A DNA stretch of 64,000 bases, from the NCBI GenBank assembly GCA_030066665.1, contig JASJBD010000005.1, forward strand, positions 1-64,000, given 5' to 3'. The position numbers were made by a program, and so were the translations under genes. Shown here piece after piece: positions 29,589 to 32,672 of this stretch. The notes beneath the pieces were generated by a model that was given only the letters and a program-made list of their open reading frames with translations, did no database searches and was not told the DNA's origin. This DNA is from Gammaproteobacteria bacterium (GTDB lineage: Bacteria; Pseudomonadota; Gammaproteobacteria; Steroidobacterales; GCA-2729495). Every line of letters begins with the position of its first letter. The first letter of the stretch is position 1.

Positions 29589-29738
29589 CTAGGCGTGGGC
29601 GCCCATTTTCTTTTTCCGCCCCCAGAAGCCAAGAATTCCGAGCGCTGATCCCATCAGCCAGGCGGCCGCGGGTACCGGAATAATGGTCGTGCTGATCGCG
29701 CCGACAGCATCAATATCGGCGCCGACGTCCACGCTCAT
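29589..29738 (-). pseudogene. Remnant of a PEP-CTERM-type sorted protein (tail only)
   Basis: The last 25 codons read IPVPAAAWLMGSALGILGFW followed by GRKKK, the VPxxxWL-membrane helix-basic tail arrangement of PEP-CTERM/exosortase substrates. Upstream, the frame has only about 25 plausible residues (MSVDVGADIDAVGAISTT) and then degenerates, with no signal peptide or ordered domain. The open frame extends upstream to 29861 without family resemblance. A decayed or truncated gene is the likeliest reading; a genuine 49-residue membrane peptide is possible. No exosortase gene is in the window. Confidence 0.55.
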
Positions 29739-29853
29739 GTAATTACGGGCGTATAGTCCGCGACCGCACGGTAGCAAGTAAACATATTCTGGGCTACGCT
29801 GGACAAGCTCAGGGCAATATCCAACCAGCAAACAAGAAACTCGGAGAATCGCC

Positions 29854-30141
29854 GTGGCCAACGAGGGTTATCACGAACGAATTGCGGAGCTGACCGACGA
29901 GACGCGGGATATGCACCGCGCGATCGTGTCGTTGATGGAGGAGCTGGAGGCCGTCGACTGGTACAACCAGCGCGTCGATGCCTGCAGGGACGACGACCTG
30001 AAAGCGATCCTGGCGCACAACCGGGACGAGGAGAAGGAACACGCGGCCATGGTCCTGGAATGGATCCGCCGGCGCGATCCAACCTTCGACAAGGAGCTCA
30101 AGGACTACCTGTTCACCGACAAGCCGATCGCCCACAAATAG
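29854..30141 (+). CDS. Encapsulated-ferritin (EncFtn) homologue without encapsulin
   Basis: A 95-residue, two-helix ferritin-like protein close to Rhodospirillum rubrum EncFtn. Shared blocks are HRAIVSLMEELEAVDWYNQR and ILAHNRDEEKEHAAMVLEW. The ferroxidase ligands correspond to Glu30, Glu60 and His63 (Glu32, Glu62 and His65 in R. rubrum), and the entry-site glutamates and the Trp-Tyr pair are kept. Dimers of such chains form the four-helix iron-oxidising site. The protein stops at DKPIAHK and has no C-terminal encapsulin-targeting extension, and no encapsulin gene is in the window. GTG 29854 follows GGAGAA by six bases. Confidence 0.88.
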   Translation: MANEGYHERIAELTDETRDMHRAIVSLMEELEAVDWYNQRVDACRDDDLKAILAHNRDEEKEHAAMVLEWIRRRDPTFDKELKDYLFTDKPIAHK

Positions 30142-31833: not shown

Positions 31834-31940
31834 CGGCCCGGGGCCGGGATATACCCATGCGGTGGGCATAGCACTGATAAGATGACGGTGTCTTGGGCAG
31901 AGCGCGTGGCCGCCGACGGCTGCCAAACCCGGGAGAGAAT

Positions 31941-32672
31941 ATGAAGACGTGCAGATTATCCCGCGCATCGGTTGCCATCGCCGCGATAGCGGCGACATTC
32001 GTAGCTGTTGCCGCACAACACGGTGCCGCATCGGCAGATGCCTCGCTGAGCGAACACATGCATCGGCACATGAGCTCCATTCGTGCAGTGAAGCAATTCA
32101 TTATCGCCGGGCAAATCGACGGTATGCGTGAGCCGGCCGTTTGGCTCGCTGAGCACGAACCAGCGTCGGATCTGCCGGCTGGCTGGGAGCCCTATGTCAC
32201 CGAATTGCGTCAGCATGCGCTGGACACGGCGTTTGCGAATCACCTGGTTTTTGCGGCCGCGTCGCTGAGTGAAATGGCACGAACCTGTGGCGACTGCCAT
32301 CGTGCCAACAATGTCAGTGGCGTCGTCGACGACGCCACGCGTCCGGCACCGGAGGGAGACAGCGTGCGCGTCCAGATGCGCCGTCACTTGTGGGCCGCTG
32401 ATCGCATGTGGGAAGGACTGATCGGCCCGTCCGACAATGCCTGGAACGATGGTATCGGCGTGCTGGCGAGTGTGGATGTCGAATCGGCGGATATCGGTGC
32501 GTTGCCCGAGCAGGAGCCCAAGGTCGACTATTTGCTGACACGCGTACGCGAGCTCGGTGAACTTGGCGGCGAGGCTGATTCGAGCGAAACGCGCAGTGCC
32601 GTCTACGGTGAGTTCCTGTCGTTGTGCGCCGACTGTCATTCCTGGACCGGCGGCGGTCCGGCAGTGCCCTAG
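31941..32672 (+). CDS. Periplasmic diheme c-type cytochrome
   Basis: A 243-residue exported protein with a signal peptide (about residues 1-32) and two haem c attachment motifs, CGDCH at 116-120 and CADCH at 229-233. Each lies at the end of a largely helical segment that contains HMHRHM and MRRHLWAADRMW stretches. The repeat-like architecture resembles tandem cytochrome c'/c556-type domains, with the CxxCH at the C-terminal end of each. ATG 31941 follows GGGAGAGA. A redox partner is not obvious, and the gene is convergent with the TRAP permease. Confidence 0.85.
   Translation: MKTCRLSRASVAIAAIAATFVAVAAQHGAASADASLSEHMHRHMSSIRAVKQFIIAGQIDGMREPAVWLAEHEPASDLPAGWEPYVTELRQHALDTAFANHLVFAAASLSEMARTCGDCHRANNVSGVVDDATRPAPEGDSVRVQMRRHLWAADRMWEGLIGPSDNAWNDGIGVLASVDVESADIGALPEQEPKVDYLLTRVRELGELGGEADSSETRSAVYGEFLSLCADCHSWTGGGPAVP

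Follow-up and report, generated by a model that had tools for sequence, protein, structure and literature searches.

Here we show that shell-free EncFtn-like proteins (s-FLPs) are tied, in a fair share of the related bacteria, to RBR-RFO-DUF3501, a defined stress operon known as the aerobic rubrerythrin module, and that most sampled s-FLP genomes yield no encapsulin shell. The starting point was one gene of the window (the whole stretch of DNA that was analysed, 64,000 nucleotides long), which is an ordinary member of this known group and not odd in itself; its link to the module is by family and not by its own locus. On balance we favour the view that the s-FLP is a soluble, shell-free, cytosolic di-iron oxidase that helps to defend the cell against peroxide and iron, alongside RBR-RFO-DUF3501. 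The tie between family and operon, which is unseen from a single window, is the part worth following.

Proteins of this kind without an encapsulin sequence were named "Non-EncFtn" in 2016 (PMC5012862), and the same group was named s-FLP in 2024 (PMC11202242). The first-pass annotation of the window held that in known systems the genes for EncFtn and encapsulin are adjacent, a statement that is not right for this branch, since the shell-free group, including the solved structure 3k6c, had already been published (PMC5012862, PMC11202242). The survey reported here settles for most sampled genomes whether a shell is present, and the operon context, in which the third member, DUF3501, is itself a protein of unknown function, provides a testable clue to the role of the shell-free form.

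A short EncFtn-like protein with an intact di-iron site

The open reading frame at 29854-30141 on the plus strand starts with GTG, stops at 30139-30141 and translates to 95 amino acids. Its features are listed below; site numbering follows PMC5012862, and invariance refers to the 80 closest loci plus the window.

29854..30141, plus strand: s-FLP, shell-free EncFtn-like protein (translation; PF22277; TIGR04535; 3k6c matched end to end)
29843..29846, plus strand: Shine-Dalgarno-like GGAG, 7 bases 5' of the GTG (sequence inspection)
29941..29943, plus strand: codon of ferroxidase Glu30, equivalent to R. rubrum Glu32 (invariant in 81/81)
One codon before and two codons after the Glu30 codon, plus strand: entry-site Glu29 and Glu32
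29962..29964, plus strand: codon of ferroxidase Tyr37, equivalent to R. rubrum Tyr39, with Trp36 directly before it (invariant in 81/81)
30031..30033, plus strand: codon of ferroxidase Glu60, equivalent to R. rubrum Glu62 (invariant in 81/81)
30040..30042, plus strand: codon of ferroxidase His63, equivalent to R. rubrum His65 (invariant in 81/81)
30115..30138, plus strand: short C-terminal tail TDKPIAHK, where a targeting peptide would be (kept among close s-FLPs)

In profile searches the protein matched the EncFtn-like family PF22277 with E=3.4e-44 and 148.9 bits, against a gathering score of 27, and TIGR04535 with 135.3 bits (cut-off 125). Among solved structures the closest is 3k6c (NE0167 of Nitrosomonas europaea), an s-FLP or Non-EncFtn protein that likewise has 95 amino acids and no targeting peptide; it aligns end to end (E=1.2e-48) with 77/95 residues identical, and differs in having Leu at the position of Trp36. 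R. rubrum EncFtn is the next structure match (E=1.4e-33, residues 4-93 of the window protein). The ferroxidase residues and the Glu/Trp-Tyr entry site claimed in the first-pass annotation are all present (Glu30, Tyr37, Glu60 and His63; Glu29, Glu32 and Trp36), as are His55, Glu59 and Glu62 at the exit, by comparison with the R. rubrum sites (PMC5012862).

The R. rubrum protein Rru_A0973 (5da5), an EncFtn or FLP-TP cargo, thus shares PF22277 and the ferroxidase, entry and exit residues with the window protein; proteins of the FLP-TP type differ in having a tail of 10-40 residues with a targeting peptide (PMC11202242) and an encapsulin, neither of which was found for the window protein. The chain stops 8 residues past Leu86-Phe87 and, as had been claimed, ends at residue 95 without a docking extension: its C-terminus, TDKPIAHK, holds no GSLK-type targeting peptide, which sets it apart from FLP-TP and places it, as a short EncFtn-like protein without such a peptide, among the s-FLP or Non-EncFtn proteins. 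Directly before the s-FLP start, the minus-strand open reading frame 29589-29861 carries VPVPAAAWLMGSALGILGFWGRKKK near its end, which we take to resemble a sorting tail of the PEP-CTERM type.

Linkage of s-FLP genes to the aerobic rubrerythrin operon

At least 583 relatives of the window protein were confirmed in GTDB contigs, of which the best 80 (83-93% identity; mostly Proteobacteria, by their titles) were used. A first clustering of the neighbours of these loci gave no partner, since the loci come from a mostly unlinked part of the family; no neighbour family occurred in more than 8 of the 81 loci, window counted. Once diverged members were added, two families were seen directly adjoining s-FLP genes: DUF3501 (PF12007, E=9.5e-70) and an Fe-S protein that carries a CCG domain. 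Together with the rubrerythrin that precedes them, these make up RBR-RFO-DUF3501, the aerobic rubrerythrin module of Cardenas et al. 2016 (PMC5114695).

The linkage was counted in a sample of 369 genomes of the window's class, 102 of which hold a homologue of the window protein. We defined s-FLP as a match of at least 73% identity and excluded G112 and G350, whose proteins are tailed and encapsulin-adjacent, which left 80 genomes including the window's own; 84 loci were read, namely 79 s-FLP, 2 tailed and 3 other short forms. DUF3501 adjoins s-FLP in 22 of the 79 other s-FLP loci (22/80 genomes), on the same strand in every case. The usual order is RBR-RFO-[s-FLP]-DUF3501, with s-FLP lying between RFO and DUF3501 in 17 of the 22; it follows RBR-RFO-DUF3501 in G116 and G173, follows DUF3501 at contig edges in G393 and G237, and lies between RBR and DUF3501 in G129. 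At many loci the flank is limited to 1.5 kb or cut short by the edge of the contig, so 22 is a lower bound. By chance, about 0.06 pairs within 1.6 kb would be expected across 57 genomes (two genes, 3 Mb genome), against 20 found from coordinates and 22 after the loci were read. The neatest internal control is provided by three genomes with both EncFtn types (G064, G246 and G297), in which the s-FLP belongs to the RBR operon while the other EncFtn, tailed or fused, is found at the shell gene; in the fourth genome with both types, G286, the s-FLP is unlinked.

Among the 81 loci nearest the window protein, window counted, L065 is the sole linked one, in addition to the 22. The window's own s-FLP lies outside the operon, and contig C34 of the same genome carries RBR, RFO and DUF3501 consecutively without an s-FLP; judged from the flanks available, 58 of the 80 s-FLP loci, window included, are unlinked. 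Mapped on a tree of the family, the linked state is scattered and takes 17 changes, of which only 3 are forced by starred branches; this is too close to the shuffled mean of 19.4 to establish an ancestral linkage.

We did not find the tie between s-FLP and the RBR operon in the open-access literature searched, and to that extent it is new. The module itself is present in the window's genome and stands beside s-FLP in the 22 relatives; it differs in that no EncFtn-type member is described in the available text of PMC5114695, and in that the window's gene lies apart from it. Another ferritin-like gene, labelled DPS, occurs in an RBR-RFO-DUF3501 operon in Blastocatellia, and its label would make it a member of a different ferritin family from s-FLP; the same source records OxyR with the RBR-RFO-DUF3501 cluster in Sideroxydans (PMC7852563).

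The genome of L155 (G231) has no DUF3501 match; there the s-FLP is directly preceded by a rubrerythrin that is more remote in sequence (54% to the probe). A topoisomerase gene, presumably parE-like, follows s-FLP or the s-FLP/DUF3501 genes at L065, L144, L151, L152 and L155.

Co-occurrence of s-FLP and DUF3501 across genomes

Beyond adjacency, the two genes tend to occur in the same genomes. After four fragments were dropped (G052, G077, G130 and G315), and with G063, G330 and G252 (short forms, 60-66% identical, without PF04454, two of them with DUF3501) counted among the others, DUF3501 was present in 57/80 s-FLP genomes and in 101/285 others (odds ratio 4.5, p=2e-8). The association held at about one genome per family, a subset (G000 and G051-G208 minus fragments) judged from family codes that are incomplete across genomes: 30/38 s-FLP genomes against 39/118 others had DUF3501 (odds ratio 7.6, p=1.2e-6). 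Bacterioferritin, taken as a control and compared on any-match counts, was no more frequent with s-FLP than without (44/80 vs 144/285, p=0.53), and an association with it is rejected.

Among encapsulin genomes DUF3501 was found in 12/19, against 146/346 of the rest (odds ratio 2.3, p=0.095), and in 3/8 of the encapsulin genomes in the one-per-family set; 4 of the 12 also hold an s-FLP. Loci L114-L136, which contain the tailed or fused EncFtn genes and were read about 1.5 kb each way, gave no match to RBR, RFO or DUF3501, and in the 12 genomes no located DUF3501 match lies beside the tailed gene (in G361 one of two matches was located).

DUF3501 is missing from 23/80 s-FLP genomes and, in a search of 26 genomes drawn from the 80 closest loci, from 12/26, including Nitrotoga, Psychromonas, Arsukibacterium and Marichromatium, whereas Nitrosospira multiformis and Thiocystis minor were positive in that search; the module is therefore not required, and the tie not obligatory.

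A proposed role in peroxide and iron defence

The first-pass annotation had suggested, among other options, that the window protein works as a free iron oxidase. Its shell-free state, the want of a targeting peptide and the intact site make this the most likely option. The protein very probably forms an open decameric ring, as in 3k6c, and would work in the cytosol and not in an encapsulin. Two chains would pair, with Glu30, Tyr37, Glu60 and His63 of each forming the ferroxidase centre. In keeping with general ferroxidase chemistry, and with the ferroxidase activity predicted from its family, the s-FLP would take up Fe2+ freed under oxidative stress and oxidise it with O2 or H2O2. The presumed partnership with RBR-RFO-DUF3501 would have it acting alongside the module, in trans in the window's genome.

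Flp cargos depend on the shell to keep their mineral (PMC8346489). A shell-free ring presumably could not keep one, and would either pass Fe3+ on or have to be reset by an electron donor. RFO is the obvious candidate donor, since it has been suggested as the electron carrier for aerobic RBR (PMC5114695); our guess is that this Fe-S protein may re-reduce the diferric centre, so that the open ring turns over. Carried to its end, this line of thought, which is speculative and more likely wrong than right, would give the aerobic rubrerythrin system a fourth component that has been overlooked, namely shell-free EncFtn: an open di-iron ring that stores no iron in a shell but, re-reduced by RFO, oxidises iron catalytically and consumes peroxide or oxygen. 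If true, EncFtn proteins would serve two separate ends, storage inside an encapsulin and turnover outside any shell, at times within the same cell.

The rival that survives best, and one that may well be correct even if we hold it to be the less probable, is a plain shell-free ferroxidase that gives Fe3+ to Dps, ferritin or other stores, for which the rubrerythrin operon would be one of many sites, the gene being parked there because both are stress genes. The 58 unlinked loci of 80, the want of any neighbour family in more than 8 of the 81 closest loci and the 23 s-FLP genomes without DUF3501 all fit this rival, as does a presumably Dps-like fragment at a contig edge in the window's own genome. 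It accounts less well for 22 loci in which DUF3501 is adjacent and always on one strand and of which 17 share one slot for the s-FLP, where about 0.06 pairs within 1.6 kb would be expected, or for the lack of co-occurrence with bacterioferritin.

Encapsulins in s-FLP genomes

The window's genome comprises 3.64 Mb in 171 contigs and is 87% complete; profile searches of it returned no match to PF04454 (encapsulin) and none to PF19307 (family-2 shell), so that the earlier claim of no encapsulin in the window now extends to the whole available genome. The whole-genome ferritin search found one EncFtn-like gene, no bacterioferritin and two matches to PF00210, one being the rubrerythrin on C34 and the other the fragment at the edge of contig C22. 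This contig-end fragment (L083) adjoins a LysR-type regulator that we assume resembles OxyR.

In the relatives, PF04454 was absent from all 50 genomes searched among those of the 80 closest loci (a set that may overlap the class sample). Within the class sample PF04454 was found in 19/369 genomes; 76/80 s-FLP genomes lack it, and each of the four that have it (G064, G246, G286 and G297) carries a second EncFtn beside the shell gene or fused to the shell. All 19 encapsulin genomes have, at the shell gene and on the same contig, an EncFtn homologue other than s-FLP (tailed in 18, fused in 1), with a GSLK-like end in 17/19, a VGKP end in G310 and fusion to a partial shell domain in G246. A phylum sample added 8 further genomes with a homologue of at least 73% identity, and PF04454 was found in 0/8. 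Seven s-FLP genomes consist of a single contig (G069, G159, G172, G182, G186, G375 and G616), and PF04454 is absent from these also. The family-2 shell PF19307 was present in 2/28 genomes, one of them the single-contig G186, and absent from the other 26.

These counts weigh on the suggestion, made at first pass, that the protein is housed by an unlinked encapsulin, docked in this case through an unrecognised peptide in its short tail; PMC11202242 leaves open a shell-binding sequence within the short s-FLP tail. For such a cargo role speak the decamers that 3k6c can form, like those of the cargo forms (PMC11202242), the conservation of the tail in close relatives and the roughly 13% of the window's genome that is missing. 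Against it stand the near absence of PF04454 (0/50, 4/80 and 0/8 s-FLP genomes, and 0/7 of the single-contig ones), the second EncFtn beside or fused to the shell in the four shell-bearing genomes, and the presence of family-2 shells in just 2/28. On the PF04454 and PF19307 survey we reject housing by an unlinked encapsulin, which we regard as very improbable.

In G246, one open frame of 492 codons at L131 (contig C227) holds both an EncFtn domain and an encapsulin match, the latter beginning only at profile position 116. This fusion, with its N-terminally incomplete shell domain, may be genuine, in decay or an artefact of assembly.

Neighbouring genes and upstream regions

The gene 377 bases upstream of the s-FLP, on the same strand, is an Atm1-type exporter, as first annotated (best PDB matches Atm1, ABCB7 and NaAtm1); downstream lie DUF1801, cupin and GFA (PF04828) genes by Pfam. 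The gene at 31893-32672, first read as a diheme cytochrome, has two CxxCH motifs by eye and no Pfam match at E 0.001. A partnership of the s-FLP with the exporter, or with the GFA and cytochrome genes, might be suspected from their adjacency on one strand in the window and from the Atm1 type of the exporter. Such neighbours do not recur: Atm1 at 40% identity or above was found near s-FLP in 0/164 other loci and GFA in 7/118 (window counted), and 377 bases separate exporter and s-FLP. The identities given to the exporter and the GFA gene thus stand, while their position is uninformative as context; the Atm1, DUF1801, cupin and GFA neighbours are probably incidental, and functional pairing with the exporter, GFA or cytochrome gene, for which we see hardly any chance, is rejected on this lack of recurrence across related loci.

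Other stress genes, under presumptive labels, were rare near s-FLP: glutathione reductase lies within 1.5 kb in 6/118 loci by loose clustering and at any distance in 4/164 by a stricter search, OxyR in 1/164, and Dps, with a 51-residue fragment as the query, in 0/164.

The regions upstream of 80 s-FLP genes gave no convincing shared motif; motif-search likelihoods exceeded those of one shuffled set (69.5 vs 48.9, for example) with no clear motif emerging. Sites for Fur, OxyR, IscR, Zur, Fnr, RpoE, RpoH and other regulators, sought with general consensus sequences, likewise gave nothing convincing in these 80 regions: the Fur score was 10.6 of 19 against 10.31 in shuffles (sd of shuffle means 0.095), with 1/80 reaching 75% of the consensus. 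A scan for promoters found none, and terminator-like sites numbered 2 against 1.2 in shuffles.

Conservation and relation to tailed forms

The s-FLP gene is under strong purifying selection. Across the 80 closest loci and the window, the ten site residues (ferroxidase, entry and exit) are invariant in 81/81, 42 of 95 positions never vary, and the median pN/pS is 0.094 over 3160 pairs, with synonymous sites near saturation. All 80 relatives are 94-101 amino acids long and, with the window protein, mostly retain the start M[A/S]NEGYHEP and the tail [D/E]KPIAH. The comparison of C-termini proposed at first pass showed the short tail to be conserved, with I at position 92 in 80/81, A at 93 in 77/81 and H at 94 in 80/81; in diverged s-FLPs the tail is more variable. 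That the gene is a tailed EncFtn in decay, cut short and with an inactive site, as its missing tail might suggest and as the first-pass annotation had allowed, is excluded for practical purposes by the invariant site, the low pN/pS and the uniform length of the relatives.

At six of these loci (L006, L008, L010, L015, L028 and L073), from Nitrotoga and several Gammaproteobacteria, the s-FLP starts and the leader sequence before the gene are alike, a similarity that hints at horizontal transfer.

The relation of short to tailed forms was followed on a tree of 82 hand-picked rows and 94 columns, which includes 25 of the 80 closest loci, some others having been omitted as duplicates. The tree requires five changes between the tailed and short states, and 3 or more of these fall on starred branches; loss or gain of tail and shell therefore happened repeatedly. 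We claim no direction for these changes, given only 94 columns, unsettled bootstrap values, an outgroup on a very long branch and an unsure root. The short protein of G252, in a genome without PF04454, has a tailed row as its neighbour (99/81). Five more short EncFtn-like proteins, at 54-57% identity and from genomes without PF04454 (L184-L188, in G714, G656, G477, G430 and G659), form a second set nested among the tailed forms (99/96).

Intermediate between the tailed and shell-free kinds are the proteins of L137 and L138 (G112 and G350), which combine an s-FLP-like core (79% identical, with the start MAHEGYHEP) with a GSLGIGSLK tail and an adjacent encapsulin. What looks like a separate short family is formed by the 104-residue homologues of L173-L176 (genus code g370; G525, G478, G458 and G674), which are about 40% identical and keep the Glu, Tyr, Glu and His residues; two of these four genomes (G458 and G478) have a PF04454 encapsulin, away from the gene. 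One s-FLP, at L147 (G124), extends to 122 amino acids through a long tail rich in Lys, Pro and Ala, with no targeting peptide in the protein and no PF04454 in its genome.
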